A stretch of 44,766 nt of DNA from a virus (IMGVR_UViG_3300047476_000617:1-44766), one strand, 5' to 3'; counted from the stretch's first letter, positions 2,776 to 44,681 are shown. Numbers and translations are program-made. Notes: a model not told the origin generated them from the sequence alone.

Positions 2776-2997
2776 ATGTTAGAAGGACTTGCCCCAAAGA
2801 CAAAGGATGCTCTTTGCGTCTTGATGCGTAGAGCAGCAGACTTGTCGGCAGAGGATTATCAAATTCTTATGGAAGCTCTAGATGACCCTAGATGGTCGTC
2901 TAATGGACTAGCCGAGGCTCTTCGTGAGCGTGGCTTTGTAATTCACAAGAACGCTGTGGGTGAGCACCGCAAGGGAGTTTGCCCCTGTGCTAGGTGA
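2776..2997 (+). CDS. Small HTH-like DNA-binding protein
   Basis: This protein has 73 residues. The segment SSNGLAEALRERGFVIHKNAVGEHR looks like a compact helix-turn-helix, and the C-terminus ends with a CPC motif. Similar short proteins with the pattern W...LA..L...G......V..HR..C are common in actinophages. An AAGGA ribosome site lies before the ATG, and a -10-like TATAGT lies about 30 bases upstream. The end overlaps the start region of the metallophosphoesterase, so the two are probably translationally coupled. A small-terminase role is possible but unsupported. Confidence 0.45.
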   Translation: MLEGLAPKTKDALCVLMRRAADLSAEDYQILMEALDDPRWSSNGLAEALRERGFVIHKNAVGEHRKGVCPCAR

Positions 2998-3958
2998 CAT
3001 GAAGCTAGAGCCTAAGTGGGATACCGTTAGGCAAGCACAGCCAGTAAATATCACGGCTCCGAAGCCAGCTAAACAGCTGAAGACGAAGCACAAGGTAGCT
3101 ATTGCGTTACCGGACCCTCAAATCGGGGGTCGTTTTTTATTTGACAAAGGGTGGGACCCGTTTCACGACGAAGCCGCCATGGATGTTTCCCTTCAAATCG
3201 TCAGCTTCCTTGAGGAGACTGATCGAATTGACTGGGTTATCAACCTAGGAGATTTCCTAGACCTACCCAGCCAGGGTCGCTTCGACCAGGAAGCGGGCTT
3301 TGCTGGGACTACCCAACGGGCGATCGACAGGGGACATCTATTTCTTCAACAGCAGAGGGCAGCAGCTGGGCCTAAGGCGGAGATAGTGCTTATTGAAGGA
3401 AACCATGACCGACGTATGGAGAAGTACATTCTCTCCAACTCGGCCGCAGCATGGGGTCTAAAGCGGGCAAATATGGATGCGCTCCCAGTCATGAGCCTGC
3501 CTTATCTATTGCGTCTCGACGAAATTGGAGTGACTTACATTGACGCATATCCCGCTGGAGCCTATTGGCTCACCCCTAGTATCAGAGCAATCCACGGAAA
3601 TAAAGCCAGAAGCAATGGCTCTACCGCCGCAGCCTACACAAACGCTGATCCTCACATTTCTACCGTCTTCGGGCACGCACATCGCCTTGAAATCCAATCA
3701 AGGACCGTATTCAATCGGGATGAAGCTATCCGAAGCGTCGCCGTCAGTCCAGGTTGCCTATGCCGCGTTGATGGAGCAGTGCCTTCAGTTAATGGATCAA
3801 CGCATGTTGACGGCACACCAGCAAAGTATTACGAGAACTGGCAGCAAGGAGTAGCCGTCATCACAATCGAGAACGACGTTCCATACGTGGAGCTAGTTGA
3901 GATTCGTAATGGCGTTGCTTGGTTCCGTGGACGGAAGTTCGTTAGTCAACGATCTTAG
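2987..3958 (+). CDS. Calcineurin-like metallophosphoesterase
   Basis: The metal-binding motifs occur in order: DPQIG (D43), GDFLD (88-92), GNHD (138-141), HG (203-204) and GHAH (229-232), numbered from GTG 2987. These mark a two-metal phosphoesterase; phage relatives are usually assigned to DNA repair, nucleic-acid processing or phosphate removal, but the substrate is unknown here. I chose GTG 2987 because AAGGGAG stands nine bases upstream. GTG 2960 (longer by 9 residues) and ATG 2999 lack a good ribosome site. It is the last gene of the plus-strand fibre operon, and its end overlaps the convergent HNH gene by 17 bases with no terminator between them. Confidence 0.85.
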   Translation: MLGDMKLEPKWDTVRQAQPVNITAPKPAKQLKTKHKVAIALPDPQIGGRFLFDKGWDPFHDEAAMDVSLQIVSFLEETDRIDWVINLGDFLDLPSQGRFDQEAGFAGTTQRAIDRGHLFLQQQRAAAGPKAEIVLIEGNHDRRMEKYILSNSAAAWGLKRANMDALPVMSLPYLLRLDEIGVTYIDAYPAGAYWLTPSIRAIHGNKARSNGSTAAAYTNADPHISTVFGHAHRLEIQSRTVFNRDEAIRSVAVSPGCLCRVDGAVPSVNGSTHVDGTPAKYYENWQQGVAVITIENDVPYVELVEIRNGVAWFRGRKFVSQRS

Positions 3959-13520: not shown

Positions 13521-13673
13521 GCTCCCCACCGCTGGGAGAAAGGGGGGAAAGAACCAGCGGTGGAGAGCATAACAGAACACCTACCTCCCGAGCAAATTGG
13601 GGGGAAGGGAGGAGGTAGATGTCCTGAGTTGGTTGGGGTAGCCCCGGAGCAAAAGGGGGGGTAGGGCTACCCC
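13521..13673 (-). repeat. Three tandem hairpins with a shared loop motif
   Basis: In the 201-base gap between the amidotransferase gene and the small-gene run lie three hairpins. They pair 13521-13535 with 13554-13568 (15 bp, one mismatch), 13581-13588 with 13611-13618 (8 bp) and 13635-13644 with 13664-13673 (10 bp). The stems are unrelated in sequence. The minus-strand loops all carry CCCCCC followed by a short T-rich stretch and a CTC-ending segment, TTTGCTC in two of the three. No T-tract follows any stem. I read this as a structured RNA or a multi-step attenuator; it is not a CRISPR array because the stems differ and there are no constant repeats. Confidence 0.7.
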
Positions 13674-13679
13674 AAGTTG

Positions 13680-14753
13680 TTAGAACAGTTGGGAGTCATC
13701 GTTCATGGTGGAGACAAGCTCACCATTAGGGAGGACTTTACCGTAGTCAATGAGCAGAACGCTAGGGTCATCGGCAAGCATGTATAGCTCGTTGACCCAT
13801 AGGTCGCGTTCGTCTTCGGTGTAATACAGGGTGTCAGGGCGAGGTGATAGCTCCTCTTGGACTTCGGTCCAGAATGTGGTGTGAAGCGTTGACTTGTATT
13901 GTGGCTGGTCGAAACTATCGTTCCAAGCATTGAACTCGGCTATGTCGTCATAGTCCCATTCGTCATCCCAGCCGTAACCCGGCACGTAGCTGGGAATGTT
14001 ATCACTGCCCTTCGCGCCAGATGTCTGGTGACGGTAGTAACTGTAATCCCAGCGATAGCCAGTGTCCTTCGGGGCAGGCAACATCTCCTTGCTGAGCATG
14101 ACACCGTAGCGGATGGTGAAGTATTCCAACTCGTTAGCGGTATACATCCATGTCGGGGCAAGGTCTAGTTGGATAAGAGCACGCCACAACAATGCCTCGG
14201 TGCTGGCAAAGACAAACGAGCCGTCTTCGAGTTGAGCCATAGTGAGTGGTGAGTGCTGATACCTAGCAAGGTGAAGCATGTTAGGGTCACGCTTGTCGAG
14301 CCATGCGATAGCAGCATCGCCGTCAAGTTGGTCAATGGCTTGTAGACCATGCTGCTCGAGCAAGGCTGGTATCACACTGGTATCAACAGGTGGCAAGTTG
14401 CCTGTAATGGTCTTGCGAACTTGCTGGTGGTTGTAGATAACGCCGTTGTGAACAAGGGCGATATTTAGATCGGGCGATGTCACAGGGTGGTTGTTGCGAT
14501 TGTCATCGACAGAGCCATGAGTGGCAAGCCTAGTGTGTAGGATAACCGTCTTGGCTTTGCGTGGCATGTGCTTGAGTGACAGCGATGAGCCGGGCTTAGC
14601 GGCTGAATGATAGCCGTGTATGCCGTTGTGATGGAAGCCGAAGCCCGATGCCATGTAGCCTCTATCTTCGATAGCGGTCAACAAGGCATTGGATAGTTGC
14701 CTGGCGTTGATTCTAGATTTGTCTGACAGGCTAAAGCCCGCAATTCCGCACAT
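13680..14753 (-). CDS. Class II glutamine amidotransferase
   Basis: The product (357 residues) starts MCGIAGF, leaving Cys2 as the N-terminal nucleophile. RGYMASGFGFHHNG, TRLATHGSVDDNRNNHP and LVHNGVIYNH carry the substrate-binding Arg, Asn and Gly residues of class II (Ntn-type) amidotransferases. These enzymes release ammonia from glutamine for a partner synthetase. The C-terminal part (from about 210) is acidic and aromatic and contains no synthetase domain, so the partner is separate: the amidoligase at 14819 is encoded 65 bases upstream in the same unit. RBS AGAAAGGAG. Such pairs are predicted to make amide-modified peptides or wall components; the substrate is unknown. Confidence 0.88.
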   Translation of the reverse strand: MCGIAGFSLSDKSRINARQLSNALLTAIEDRGYMASGFGFHHNGIHGYHSAAKPGSSLSLKHMPRKAKTVILHTRLATHGSVDDNRNNHPVTSPDLNIALVHNGVIYNHQQVRKTITGNLPPVDTSVIPALLEQHGLQAIDQLDGDAAIAWLDKRDPNMLHLARYQHSPLTMAQLEDGSFVFASTEALLWRALIQLDLAPTWMYTANELEYFTIRYGVMLSKEMLPAPKDTGYRWDYSYYRHQTSGAKGSDNIPSYVPGYGWDDEWDYDDIAEFNAWNDSFDQPQYKSTLHTTFWTEVQEELSPRPDTLYYTEDERDLWVNELYMLADDPSVLLIDYGKVLPNGELVSTMNDDSQLF

Positions 14754-14818: not shown

Positions 14819-16549
14819 TTACCGTTCAGCAATTAGTTGGTTGCTGTCTAACTCGTCAAAGAGATGGTTTGTAGGCATCTCTGAGCCGTATTTGCGGAGT
14901 AATGAGATTACATCCGTAATCGAACGACAGGATGTCCATTCGCGTTGGTCAATACCTAGTTTGGATACATTGACCATCTCACGAGCGAACCATGCCCATC
15001 GGACAAGATGTGCGTAGTCATACCACGCACCCATGCTACGGAACTCGATAGTGCCATGAGCTTGGAGTGAGTGGAGGTTGACATCGACATAGCGACCTAG
15101 CGGAGACGCTTGGTTATCGTAGACGAAGTCGATAGCAAGCGGGATATCGTCAGAGTTAGCGTGAGCATATTCCTTAGTCTTGCGAAGCCACCAACGAAGT
15201 GTGTCGGTGGTGGTTTCTTTACAATAGCTACGTTCCTTACGATGTAGCAGTGGCTCCATGAACCGCTCGACAGCCGAGTAAGCGACAAGTAGTCGGGTTA
15301 CATCGGCAACGGTCAGGTCTTTAGCACCGACATGGACATGGATGCCAGCCGAGCCGCCTTCGTCATCGTCAGTGCCGAGGTCGTTACATAGTCTGCGTAG
15401 ACCATCGCTGTTGAAGTGTCTGAGGATGGGCGACACGAACTCACGAGAGTATTGACCGCTTGGCGTATACTCGCCTGATTCGTAGCAATAGTAGCGGTCG
15501 TTACAGTGGTCATTGTCATCGCACTCGTCACAACTACACGAGCAGTCCGCTGAGTCGCCTTCGGGTAGCGAGCCGTCATGCCTAGATTCCCAGCCCGCTG
15601 GTCGAGATGTCTCGTTAGCACGAACTGTCTCGATCTCGATACCCCATGTTCGTGAGGTCTCGATACCGGCAGCCTTGAGCGGGATGGTTGCCCACTCAGC
15701 AGTAGCTTGCGATACGGTTGGGATAAGGGCGGATGACTTGAGGTCATTCCAGAAGGTCGCGAACTTTCTACTCGCCAGCTCGCGCCTGATATTGGCTTGA
15801 GAAGCGAAGTGGTTGGCTTGGTCTTCGAGCAACGCCTGACGGTTAGCCTTCATGTCATAGATAGAGGGCTTGTAGGTGTTGTAGTTGTCGAAGGCTTTGG
15901 CAACCCTAGCTGCTACGGTGAAGTCCATGATATCGGTGTAACCGATGTGAACATAGTAGAAATACTTGCCGTTCTTAGAGCCGACTTCGCCCTTAGTAAA
16001 GGCAGACAGCTCACTTACAAGCTTGTTGCGTTTAGCCATCCAGACAGCACGACTAAGTGTGGATACATTGGGGTCGCCTGTATAGCTGGGATTCAGTCGC
16101 GACTCGACAAAGTCGAAGACCTTGTAGCGGTCACTATAACCATGAACGCTAGATTCAACCGGAGTTAGATGTCCAGCGACAAGTCTGGTGAACGCATCCA
16201 TGCTAACGCCGATAACGCCATCGAGTCGTTCGGGCGACCAATAGGTCTCTAAGCCGTCATGTTTGACGCTTATGGTGTGCTCACCCTTGGCTAATGGAAG
16301 GAATAGTTCCTTGTAGTTAGCCGCAAGGTAAGCAGCGTGCTTCACACTGGCCATCATGTATCGGGCTGTGTGCGTGGCAGATTCTTCGGATCTGACATCG
16401 CTGAGCTCTGCTTTGACCTGATCCATGTCAATGGGCGATTTGCCATATGTCTGGATGTTGGTCTGACGATACCTGGTCATGTTCCAGTGAAAAGTAGCGG
16501 CGAGTGAATCTGATTTGCTTGACACGATGTCGTCAGCAACAAGAGTCAT
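14819..16549 (-). CDS. GS-fold amidoligase (PF12224-like) with Cys-rich insertion
   Basis: From ATG 16549 the product has 576 residues. The last 280 match the predicted amidoligase family of the glutamine synthetase fold: GIEIE (303-307), HDGSL (324-328), REFVSP (369-374), GIHVHVG (402-408), VDVNLHS (488-494) and GTIEFR (499-504) supply the metal and ATP ligands. Six cysteines at 336, 338, 340, 343, 349 and 355 form an insertion between HDGSL and REFVSP. The N-terminal 290 residues are an unrecognised domain. The family joins carboxylates to amines; with the adjacent class II amidotransferase it may use ammonia. The start is chosen from AAAGG eight bases upstream; ATG 16555 is also possible. 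Upstream lies the DnaA/Zur control region. Confidence 0.82.
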   Translation of the reverse strand: MTLVADDIVSSKSDSLAATFHWNMTRYRQTNIQTYGKSPIDMDQVKAELSDVRSEESATHTARYMMASVKHAAYLAANYKELFLPLAKGEHTISVKHDGLETYWSPERLDGVIGVSMDAFTRLVAGHLTPVESSVHGYSDRYKVFDFVESRLNPSYTGDPNVSTLSRAVWMAKRNKLVSELSAFTKGEVGSKNGKYFYYVHIGYTDIMDFTVAARVAKAFDNYNTYKPSIYDMKANRQALLEDQANHFASQANIRRELASRKFATFWNDLKSSALIPTVSQATAEWATIPLKAAGIETSRTWGIEIETVRANETSRPAGWESRHDGSLPEGDSADCSCSCDECDDNDHCNDRYYCYESGEYTPSGQYSREFVSPILRHFNSDGLRRLCNDLGTDDDEGGSAGIHVHVGAKDLTVADVTRLLVAYSAVERFMEPLLHRKERSYCKETTTDTLRWWLRKTKEYAHANSDDIPLAIDFVYDNQASPLGRYVDVNLHSLQAHGTIEFRSMGAWYDYAHLVRWAWFAREMVNVSKLGIDQREWTSCRSITDVISLLRKYGSEMPTNHLFDELDSNQLIAER

Positions 16550-16627
16550 CTCCATACCTTTCTCGTATGTTCGGAGCACTGGCGGTTGCCAGCACTTATT
16601 GCCACTTGCGTAAGCAAGCAACACTTG

Positions 16628-16647
16628 TAAAGGCAAATGGTGGCAAG
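16628..16647. repeat. Degenerate copy of the TAAGGCGAATGGTGGCAGG repeat
   Basis: This segment, about 80-100 bases before the amidoligase start, matches the two exact copies at 17562-17581 and 17710-17729 apart from a few changes. All three lie in non-coding gaps of the minus-strand unit and have TTGT a short way upstream on the plus strand. Promoter or protein-binding function is possible; no good -35/-10 pair is seen. Confidence 0.55.
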
Positions 16648-16711
16648 GGCATTTCTACCCGCCGAACCCACTTGTCCTGCTACATTCACAAGCACCCGAA
16701 CAGGCAAAACC

Positions 16712-16819
16712 TGTGGATAACTTGTGATACATCTGTATTTCTCCGCCGTTTGTTACTTTTTCGGTATACAACTGCCGAGGTTGTGGATAACTCTGTCATG
16801 GAAATTGGGGTTATCCACA
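16712..16819. other. Cluster of three perfect DnaA boxes (likely origin)
   Basis: TTATCCACA, the strongest DnaA box, occurs exactly three times: reverse at 16712-16720 and 16782-16790, forward at 16811-16819. The surrounding 16550-17104 region contains no credible gene and also holds iteron-like repeats. The absence of a phage polymerase fits use of the host initiator DnaA. I infer a replication origin. Confidence 0.7.
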
Positions 16820-16866
16820 GGCTCAATGGGCTACTTTGCCCAGTAATGGAGCCGAAGTCTGATTAG

Positions 16867-16972
16867 GTGACAGCAGTGACAGCGTTTTTGGTAACTTTTG
16901 AAATATCTCTAGATATAGGGGTAAATGGTGCTTATATCTGAAACTTTTCCAAAAACGCTGTCATGCTGTCAC
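16867..16972. repeat. Inverted repeat of GTGACAGC iterons
   Basis: GTGACAGC occurs twice in a row at 16867-16884 and, inverted, as GCTGTCAT/GCTGTCAC at 16958-16972. The arms 16867-16891 and 16949-16972 pair over 24 bases except for one missing base, with an AT-rich centre holding a near-palindrome. A further GCTGTCAC lies at 17060-17067. This is the pattern of iterons bound by a replication initiator or a regulator, next to the DnaA boxes; the AT-rich centre may be the unwinding site. Confidence 0.65.
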
Positions 16973-16989
16973 TTCGGTAATTTTTACCG

Positions 16990-17026
16990 ATGGAGCTCGA
17001 TGGAGCTCGATATGTCGTCACGACAT
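16990..17026. repeat. Tandem direct repeat and 15-bp palindrome
   Basis: GATGGAGCTC is repeated in tandem at 16990-17009, followed by ATGTCGTCACGACAT (17012-17026), a perfect inverted repeat with a one-base centre. Both lie between the iterons and the Zur-like box in non-coding DNA. The palindrome has operator form; its protein is unknown. Confidence 0.55.
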
Positions 17027-17070
17027 GACTGACGGGGTTGTGGAAAGTGGTGTCACCACGCTGTCACCTT

Positions 17071-17089
17071 ATTGAAAATGATTTTCAAT
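17071..17089. promoter_or_regulatory. Zur-type zinc-regulator operator
   Basis: A 19-bp perfect inverted repeat (9-bp arms, single G centre) contains TGAAAATGATTTTCA at 17073-17087. This equals the palindrome known for the zinc-uptake regulator Zur in actinobacteria such as Streptomyces. No phage gene for a Fur-family protein is present, so the host protein would be the ligand. The nearest gene it could control is the leftward amidoligase-amidotransferase unit, whose start is about 520 bases away. A weaker Fur-type role is an alternative. Confidence 0.6.
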
Positions 17090-17104
17090 AGCTCATGGGT
17101 CGCG

Positions 17105-17173
17105 CTACACGCCCAGCATGATGAAACATAGGCAGATAGTGGCTACTCCGAAGATCCAGAGAAAGCTATTCAC
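17105..17173 (-). CDS. 22-residue membrane micropeptide
   Basis: GTG 17173 starts a 22-residue peptide that is almost one hydrophobic transmembrane helix (FLWIFGVATICLCFIMLGV). GGAG stands seven bases upstream, and the start overlaps the stop of the preceding small gene (GTGA). Short single-span peptides in phages often modulate host membrane proteins or lysis timing; nothing more specific can be said. It could be a chance frame, but the coupling and hydrophobicity speak for it. Confidence 0.4.
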   Translation of the reverse strand: MNSFLWIFGVATICLCFIMLGV

Positions 17174-17277
17174 TTGTCTGCTCCGTCTACGATGGCGTGA
17201 GCCAAGTCAAGGTAGCCAGCGATACGCATAGCTTGCTGAGTGAGCTCAGCTAGTTCAGCCCTAGTCGCCATAGCCAT
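17170..17277 (-). CDS. 35-residue helical small protein
   Basis: ATG 17277 opens a 35-residue frame (MAMATRAELAELTQQAMRIA, then GYLDLAHAIVDGADK), a single amphipathic helix. It overlaps the end of the CPEC protein gene by 17 bases and its stop overlaps the GTG of the micropeptide. The ribosome site is poor, so coupling would drive its translation. Unknown function. Confidence 0.4.
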   Translation of the reverse strand: MAMATRAELAELTQQAMRIAGYLDLAHAIVDGADK

Positions 17278-18114: not shown

Positions 18115-19299
18115 CTAAGCTGCGAACAGCTGTAGAGCGTCCTTGTAGATGCGGTCGAAGCGAGGCTTGCCAAGCTCAGACTCGAGCTCGGTTAGCGAGT
18201 AGCCCTCGGTGAGGCAGTGAACAAACGCAACAGCGTTGCTCTCAGCCTTGCCGAGCTCAGCCTTGCTGAGGTACTCCTGGAGCATCTCAGCGCGGTCGAC
18301 CTTGATCTCGTCGAGCTCGTACTTGTTGAAGTACTCGGACTCGGCGCTGTTGACGAGCAAGTCGCCAACCTGGATTGCGTCGTAGACAAGCGACTCAGAG
18401 AACACACCCTCTGGGGTTAGACCCTCGAGGACGCGGTTGAACTGCTTGAATCCCTCGCGGTAGACCTTGCCTACCTCGCGGTAGACAGCGCCTGCGGTTG
18501 GGAGCAACTCAGCTGCGTGGTTGCGGTAGAACTCGGAGCGTAGGATGATCTCGCGAAGCTCGAGACCAGTACGTGCGTTGCGGACAGGAGCTGCCATCGT
18601 CTGACGACGAAGGCCACCGCGCTTGCCTCGCTTCTCGTCAAAGACGTAGCGAGTGAACTGGTCGAACTGAGCAATGCGAGACAGCTCAGCACCACTGCGG
18701 TAGTCACGCATGGTAGCACGTGCTGCCTTGATGGTAGCTGCATCCCAGTCTAGGTCGAGGTCAGCTACGACCGCGTCGATTAGCACGTTGACGTAGGCAC
18801 GCCATAGTGCTAGTGAGACGATGTCCTCTGGCGAGTAGCCCAGAAGACCTAGGTCGTTCTTGCCCTGACGCTGCTTGGCAACCTCACGACGAACGATGCG
18901 CTCGAGCAGGTGCTCGTTAGCAGGCTCGTTGAACACCGAGTTGACGTACTCAGAGTACGCCTCGACGATGTCGGTGAAGCCCTTCTTCTCAGCAGACTGC
19001 TGAGAGGAGAAGAGCATGCCGTACTTAGCCTTGGCCCATGCGTTGAAGTTCATGGGTGGGTTCCAAGTGCGGCGTGCGTCGGGGAGCTGCTTGCTCTCCC
19101 ACTCCTCACATACAGCGCAGACCATCTCGAGCTCGTCGAACTCAGGGGTCTGGCAGATGTGCTGGATAGCGAGAGCCTTGACAGCCTCGGCCTTAGCAGC
19201 AGACCTCTCACCCTTGAGGGTCTTCGGCTTGCTGCTCGACTTGTTAGAAACCTTGGCAGCCTGAGCTGCGAAGATCTCCGCAATAGACAATGAAGTCAT
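18115..19299 (-). CDS. Possible divergent sigma factor-like protein
   Basis: This 394-residue protein is the first gene of the leftward unit. Residues 130-172 (LLERIVRREVAKQR, then GYSPEDIVSLALWRAYV) resemble the core-binding helices of sigma-70 region 2, where EDLVQEALLRAW is typical. Residues 352-392 (AVAFVHCLTEGYSLTELESE, then LGKPRFDRIYKDAL) follow the HTH pattern of region 4. The middle is an unrecognised helical domain, and CxxC at 61-64 may bind zinc. If correct, it would redirect host RNA polymerase; the phage has no polymerase of its own. The match rests on pattern reading only. The ribosome site is AAAGGT, and the leader is shared with the coiled-coil gene. Confidence 0.4.
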   Translation of the reverse strand: MTSLSIAEIFAAQAAKVSNKSSSKPKTLKGERSAAKAEAVKALAIQHICQTPEFDELEMVCAVCEEWESKQLPDARRTWNPPMNFNAWAKAKYGMLFSSQQSAEKKGFTDIVEAYSEYVNSVFNEPANEHLLERIVRREVAKQRQGKNDLGLLGYSPEDIVSLALWRAYVNVLIDAVVADLDLDWDAATIKAARATMRDYRSGAELSRIAQFDQFTRYVFDEKRGKRGGLRRQTMAAPVRNARTGLELREIILRSEFYRNHAAELLPTAGAVYREVGKVYREGFKQFNRVLEGLTPEGVFSESLVYDAIQVGDLLVNSAESEYFNKYELDEIKVDRAEMLQEYLSKAELGKAESNAVAFVHCLTEGYSLTELESELGKPRFDRIYKDALQLFAA

Positions 19300-44096: not shown

Positions 44097-44681
44097 ATGC
44101 CTATACAGCCGATGAAGCGTGACCTGTCTCAAGTCTCTGAGCCAGCCATAACCGATGTAGATAGTGGCATTACTGCTATACATCATACACTAGGCCCTGC
44201 TGCTTTCCAGGCAAGCCCAGGTTCGCACAGACATGACGGCACTGACTCCCACTTTATCGAGTTGGGGAATCTGAAGGGATCGTCAGTCGATTTTGTTCCA
44301 TTTGGCGGTGCTGCCGAAACTCAGCCAACCTTCAGCGGGACTCCGCTGTTTAGCGGCAGTTACACCAGGGTGGGCAATCTAGTCCACTTCGCGATCGACG
44401 TAGACATGGATAACATCACCAGCTTTGGCTCTGGCCAGTACTACATGGATCTGCCTTTTGTGGCTGCTCGAAACTACCTGTTCAGCGATGGATGCTTGCA
44501 CGATTTTTCTACAGGCGACGAGTATGCGATTCTAGCTCACATGCTGGGCGGAACTAATCGAATCACTTTGCTGTCTACCGCCTCTAACGGCAGGCAAGTC
44601 CATTTCACTAGCAGCGTGCCTGTCAACCTTTCTACTGCCGATAATTTTCACATAGCAGGTACATACCAGATTGCTGAATAA
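44097..44681 (+). CDS. Tail fibre / receptor-binding protein, allele B
   Basis: This complete copy (194 residues, MPIQPMKRDLSQVSEP...) is about 90% identical in protein to the truncated copy at 3-581, with the same end. A TAAGG ribosome site lies seven bases before the ATG; M6 (44109) is an alternative start. The 18 amino-acid changes lie mainly in residues 64-180, and residues 17-62 are identical. It opens the fibre operon when the genome is closed at the 127-bp overlap. Confidence 0.7.
   Translation: MPIQPMKRDLSQVSEPAITDVDSGITAIHHTLGPAAFQASPGSHRHDGTDSHFIELGNLKGSSVDFVPFGGAAETQPTFSGTPLFSGSYTRVGNLVHFAIDVDMDNITSFGSGQYYMDLPFVAARNYLFSDGCLHDFSTGDEYAILAHMLGGTNRITLLSTASNGRQVHFTSSVPVNLSTADNFHIAGTYQIAE

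Follow-up and report, generated by a model that had tools for sequence, protein, structure and literature searches.

The window that we analysed comprises the complete record of a virus, 44,766 bases long (IMGVR_UViG_3300047476_000617:1-44766). On its minus strand lies a GS-like amidoligase of the Amidoligase_2 family (14819..16555), which is followed 65 bp downstream, on the same strand, by a class II glutamine amidotransferase of the Ntn-type GATase_6 family (13680..14753). Upstream of the ligase come a conserved non-coding block (16700..17069) and, directly beside it, a Zur-box-like palindrome (17070..17090). An earlier, sequence-only reading had assigned the locus to 14819-17089; this interval does hold the ligase and the upstream block, but the amidotransferase falls outside it. 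The same reading had taken the virus for an actinobacterial phage, and this is supported by a WhiB gene in the window and by the terminase, whose best relatives are those of Arthrobacter phages (44-48% identity), which together make an actinobacterial host likely. As a close comparison we used a sister phage, IMGVR_UViG_3300046779_001323 (L002), with proteins 94-96% identical. Two near-alike ORFs (MKRDLSQV..EP, 12-581 and 44097-44681) stand at opposite ends of the record and would reflect either a gene duplication or a feature of the join region.

The amidotransferase is a protein of 357 aa that starts with MCGIAGF, so that Cys2 is its N-terminal nucleophile, and its start is preceded by a clear ribosome-binding site, AAAGGAG, read in the sequence. 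It matches Pfam GATase_6 (PF13522, E=5e-23), scoring over the curated cut-off, and resembles the glutaminase of GlmS by sequence alignment. The GlmS-type motif residues, namely the N-terminal Cys after Met, an Arg, the Asn-Gly of the oxyanion site and an Asp, are all present, and C2, R75, T78, N103, G104 and D124 are invariant among 36 amidotransferase sequences. The structural model likewise corresponds to the GlmS glutaminase fold, with E=3e-16 to 3ooj and a TM-score of 0.75 normalised on 1xff. We rejected a complete GlmS as the identity of this protein, which has 357 aa as against about 600 aa and gave no match to a SIS (sugar isomerase) domain. At its C-terminus (aa about 290-350) it carries an extra small alpha/beta domain that is modelled with good confidence and is matched by no Pfam family. 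Comparison with the sister phage (dN/dS 0.023/0.192) indicates that the gene is intact and under purifying selection. A terminator-like hairpin (13658..13673, minus strand) was picked up by a consensus scan directly past the stop codon; terminator-like sites are no commoner than in shuffles, and the hairpin is backed by its position alone.

The amidoligase has 578 aa, or 576 aa when counted from the second ATG, at 16549. A TTG at 16636 is a merely mechanical start, and the ATG at 16555 or 16549 is the better one; ahead of the latter a clear ribosome-binding site, AGAAAGG, can be read in the sequence. The protein consists of an N-terminal helical domain (aa 1-290) and a ligase domain (aa about 300-560), the second of which matches Pfam Amidoligase_2 (PF12224) over aa 307-527 with E=1e-15 and 58.7 bits against a gathering cut-off of 22. 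Across 32 aligned phage amidoligases E307, E309, H406, H408, D413, T502, E504 and R506 are invariant, which means that the residues of the GxExE, HxH and E-x-R motifs of the family (E307, E309, H406, H408, E504, R506) are all kept. Like its partner, the gene is intact and under purifying selection when compared with the sister phage (dN/dS 0.034/0.213). With distant members included, the ligase alignment was too diverse to serve as a search query.

A GS fold had been claimed for the ligase, and structure prediction bears this out. The AlphaFold (AF2) model reached a mean pLDDT of 79.6, and all 50 matches listed by Foldseek against the PDB belong to the GS superfamily (YbdK, glutamine synthetases, Dop), in keeping with the invariant active-site residues. 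The E-values to these solved folds are weak, the best being 8e-3, and the TM-scores are low; the probable cause is the N-terminal domain, which has no relation to these folds. Most of the BFVD matches of the model are amidoligases of phages, with E-values as low as 1.6e-15; a sequence search for a solved structure resembling the ligase matched none. Within the ligase domain there is a Cys-rich insert of the form CSCSCDEC-x5-HC-x5-C (about aa 355-384; 15404..15493, minus strand), which is modelled poorly (low pLDDT) and may be a metal-binding knuckle. Among the 32 aligned phage enzymes, 28 have an insert with at least five Cys, which is absent from the Arthrobacter and LUZ24-like ones. Together, the Cys-rich insert and the N-terminal domain, some 290 aa long, set apart a subfamily; the insert is the new detail to emerge for the ligase.

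We then turned to how constantly the two genes occur together in other genomes. Eighty viral loci were fetched by the amidotransferase alone and then searched with the amidoligase profile, which found a ligase in 57/80, within 1.1 kb in 56, a sample that may lean towards paired loci, given that the query alignment held four distant amidotransferases from phage records, all with a ligase nearby. The 23 loci lacking a ligase comprise 17 full-length GlmS proteins, four amidotransferases near a contig end and just two genuine absences (L083, L095). When the sequences are clustered at 80% identity, a ligase accompanies 42 of 44 clusters of stand-alone amidotransferases versus none of 12 clusters of GlmS length. 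Adjacency is kept throughout while gene order varies (20 with the ligase first on the same strand, 17 divergent, four with the amidotransferase first), and the distance matrices of the two proteins correlate (Mantel r=0.72, 0/2000 permutations), part of which is shared phage ancestry. Such near-obligate pairing, even with one gene flipped, suggests that ligase and amidotransferase are very probably a genuine functional couple. The two-gene unit proposed from the sequence has thus stood up, with both domains real and the catalytic residues kept in genes 65 bp apart, and so has the expectation that the genes would be neighbours in relatives. The partner is not universal, however: some Porphyromonas phage amidoligases have no neighbouring amidotransferase.

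Among cellular genomes, the best 80 amidotransferase matches were almost all GlmS, and a ligase adjoined the gene in one of the 80. This single case (L099, a Dehalococcoides metagenome bin) has a stand-alone amidotransferase of 338 aa, and an amidoligase lies upstream of it at a distance of about 450 bp; the pair may be of viral origin. A separate observation concerns 19 related phage loci (L025:568-951, L033:2572-2937, L036:4530-4853 and 16 more) in which a conserved protein, some 100 aa long, is encoded close downstream of the amidoligase. This protein had no confident Pfam match and no copy in the window; it could be a substrate or an adaptor.

The sequence-only reading knew of no worked-out phage example of such a pair with these control elements. 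That the pair as such is unusual in phages we cannot uphold, as it is already annotated in the Arthrobacter phages Salgado and Ottawa, in LUZ24-like phages and in OM43 phages. In the LUZ24-like Pseudomonas phages (LUZ24 gp18-gp19, UFV-P2 ORF23/25, tf) adjacent Amidoligase_2 and GATase_6 genes likewise sit in the early/replication block. The LUZ24 ligase, unlike the one described here, has neither the N-terminal domain nor the Cys-rich insert, and these phages possess extra ATP-grasp, COOH-NH2 ligase and cyclotransferase genes that set them apart from the window. The Arthrobacter pairs (Salgado gp98-gp99, Ottawa gp65-gp66) also belong to actinophages, with the ligase directly before the amidotransferase, and adjoin helicase, exonuclease or WhiB genes. 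Their amidotransferase is 33-35% identical to ours, whereas their ligase, about 25% identical, is shorter and is devoid of the insert and the N-terminal domain. A metallophosphoesterase gene in the window (2960-3958, plus strand; PHROG 20266, E=2e-94) is of a type that also occurs in the pair-bearing OM43 phages.

The non-coding block upstream of the ligase had been called origin-like, and both its elements and their conservation are in agreement with this. It was aligned with its counterparts in L011/L023 and L016, whose ligases are just 35-42% identical, and in L249. Identity to two diverged relatives is 62% and 56% within the block as against 22-37% in the flanks, and blastn recovers relatives with E=3e-22 and 2e-10; four diverged phage lineages have kept the block but not its flanks. 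Three perfect DnaA boxes, TTATCCACA, lie within 108 bp (16712..16720 and 16782..16790 on the minus strand, 16811..16819 on the plus strand) and are the only perfect ones in the 44.8 kb; three perfect boxes anywhere were reached in one of 100 genome shuffles. The second and third form a 38-bp unit with a fixed 20-bp spacer that is kept in the four lineages. A fourth box has decayed in the window (TTTCCACA) and reads TTATCCACA in relatives. GTGACAG/CTGTCAC iterons are inverted around an AT-rich centre, with two GTGACAGC copies on one side (16867..16883, plus strand) and TGACAG copies on the opposite side (16957..16972, minus strand), and a further pair, GTGACAGCG-N-GTGACA (17047..17067, minus strand), adjoins the decayed DnaA box. 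A palindromic block, ATGTCGTGACGACATA (17011..17026), is identical in 5/5 aligned phages. Invariant elements across the aligned phages are TGTGGATAA-N20-TTATCCACA, the inverted GTGACAG iterons, ATGTCGTGACGACATA and TCGGTA; a tandem 10-mer, CGATGGAGCT (two copies at 16988/16998, 16988..17007, plus strand), is not conserved in the diverged relatives.

This pattern is strong evidence that the block has a conserved function, and it is probably the replication origin of the phage, for which it makes a good candidate. Plasmid and phage origins built from DnaA boxes and iterons likewise combine clustered DnaA boxes, inverted iterons and an AT-rich centre; they differ from the candidate here in that no initiator gene was identified in our case. 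GC skew across the window gave no clear origin signal, and the DnaA boxes could instead serve another role, such as DnaA titration or transcription control. The elements of the block are absent upstream of the pair in the distant pair-bearing relatives L021, L022, L054 and L057, which argues that the candidate origin belongs to this phage group and not to the enzyme pair. In a scan of viral contigs for DnaA-box pairs, which covers the matches listed and is no census, two unrelated amidoligase/amidotransferase pairs (L185, L201) had two closely spaced DnaA boxes at a distance of about 3 kb, possibly by coincidence.

At the far end of the block, the sequence TATTGAAAATGATTTTCAATA (17070..17090) forms a perfect 10-1-10 palindrome, and its core, TGAAAATGATTTTCA, equals the published Zur consensus of Streptomyces coelicolor (PMC2823685). 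About 1e-4 exact Zur cores would be expected by chance in the window, for a motif that was chosen after the fact. Actinobacterial Zur operators share the 7-1-7 core and the 10-1-10 palindrome seen here (PMC2823685, PMC4298942). They differ from the phage site, however, in that mapped Zur sites overlap the promoter core (PMC2823685), whereas a scan for sigma-70-type sites found nothing promoter-like near 17070-17090, and in that the phage site is not conserved among related phages. The sister phage has the core as well, apart from a single mismatch in an outer arm of the palindrome, whereas the core is absent from three other relatives that share the origin block (including L011/L023 and L016). 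Among viral contigs, a Zur core joined to an iteron was found in the sister phage alone besides the window, and a search of the literature on Zur boxes in phages returned nothing relevant. Of the exact Zur operator claimed earlier, then, the consensus match stands and control of the pair is not supported: the site is not conserved, it lacks a promoter-like neighbour, and some 515 bp, the origin block among them, separate it from the ligase start. We regard the palindrome as a real consensus match and, at most, as a lineage-specific addition. Further ORFs lie beyond it on the minus strand. Two tiny overlapping ones (17105-17271) come after a 98-aa ORF; one, at 17170-17271, has 33 aa, and the other (17105-17173) would encode a 22-aa hydrophobic peptide, MNSFLWIFGVATICLCFIMLGV, that occurs in the sister phage; L023 has a similar peptide upstream of its origin. 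Further along, a 394-aa ORF (18115-19299) had no Pfam or PHROG match; its GYSPEDIVSLALWRAYVNVL and LTEGYSLTELESELG stretches look sigma-factor-like by eye.

If the palindrome made the operon zinc-responsive, host Zur-Zn would repress it and zinc shortage would induce it, and the Cys-rich insert would tie the ligase to zinc. The perfect 21-bp match to the actinobacterial motif, the persistence of its core in the sister phage and the insert itself speak for such control. Nevertheless, the absence of the box from relatives with the same origin block, the distance to the ligase and the lack of promoter-like hexamers nearby, at odds with the promoter-overlapping Zur sites that have been mapped, make it improbable. 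Even less credible to us is a complete zinc-linked peptide or wall amidation system, in which a ligase of the metal-binding-insert subfamily, a dedicated glutaminase and a host Zur operator acquired beside the origin would act together. Zinc control is a matter of regulation, and we judged it apart from the question of what the pair modifies.

Altogether, we consider it quite probable that the locus encodes a glutamine-dependent amide-ligase enzyme pair with an adjacent candidate replication origin. Both enzyme domains occur with conserved catalytic residues, purifying selection and a near-obligate linkage; for the chemistry and the hand-over of ammonia we infer the following from knowledge of the families. 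Cys2 of the amidotransferase would hydrolyse glutamine and release ammonia, while the amidoligase would bind ATP in its glutamine-synthetase-like active site, activate a carboxylate as an acyl-phosphate and join ammonia, or another amine, to it. At the neighbouring block, host DnaA and an iteron-binding initiator would open the AT-rich centre, at which the phage primase-helicase (4591-7077) would then load. The pair would adjoin the origin because it belongs to the early/replication gene block and not through regulation by the origin, and it is most likely expressed with the replication genes.

Regarding the target, which we divided by judgement, a host envelope peptide and a host or phage protein seem about equally likely. 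In the former case, which we put forward tentatively, the pair would amidate carboxylates of the peptidoglycan stem peptide or of another envelope polymer and thereby shield the infected cell against other phages or, up to late infection, against the lysin of the phage itself. GatD, the glutaminase of the bacterial MurT-GatD couple, is a class I enzyme. Amidation by ligase plus glutaminase is real in bacteria, where MurT-GatD modifies the wall glutamate in this way (PMC3267633), and for the phage pair a role in modifying wall or peptides has been published as a prediction, and a prediction only, by Iyer and colleagues in 2009, with wall modification against superinfection predicted for phiEco32, according to papers that cite the survey (PMC10580990, PMC11318856). 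Against a wall target, the neighbourhood contains no wall gene, the pair sits in a replication/early block here as well as in the Arthrobacter and LUZ24-like phages, and cytosolic precursors would have to serve as substrate. Our literature search found no experiment in its support, nor a measured function for any phage amidoligase/amidotransferase pair.

That same early/replication position, recurring across unrelated phages, favours the second, similarly tentative candidate, in which a protein or peptide (host RNA polymerase, or a ribosomal, replication or phage protein) would undergo amidation or peptide ligation at an early stage of infection. The fold matches of the ligase include Dop, and the GS-fold relatives Dop and PafA act on proteins. 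In LUZ24-like phages and KZY1 the ligase is grouped with a COOH-NH2 ligase, a RimK-like ATP-grasp protein and a gamma-glutamyl cyclotransferase, which suggests a peptide-tag pathway, and the small protein encoded close to the ligase in 19 related loci is a candidate substrate or adaptor; the window, however, has no extra ligase or cyclotransferase nearby and does not encode the small protein. Production of a small-molecule amide, or of a modified nucleotide for phage DNA, seems unlikely by comparison. It would fit the adjoining replication genes and the novel amidoligase metabolites that the Iyer 2009 survey proposes, as its title and citing text have it, but no thymidylate-synthase-like, hydroxymethylase, kinase or other modification or metabolite gene was recognised among the window proteins scanned. 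We judged DNA base modification in particular unlikely, given that partner genes were not recognised among those proteins. To targets of any other kind we assign a similarly small share.

Overall, the locus holds a known kind of gene pair that is well supported, in a subfamily variant and together with a good candidate origin, while the Zur link rests on the sequence match. Predictions for the phage pair date back to 2009, and the present data add the evidence of linkage and the subfamily defined by the Cys-rich insert and the N-terminal domain. As the linkage is near-obligate and persists where a gene is flipped, an assay of both proteins together is the experiment of choice, and culturable relatives of the pair are within reach in the Arthrobacter phages. 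For a group of phages of actinobacteria, the conserved DnaA/iteron block provides a candidate origin that can be put to the test. The target of the enzyme pair, if found, would settle whether these phages rewrite the wall or the proteins of their hosts.
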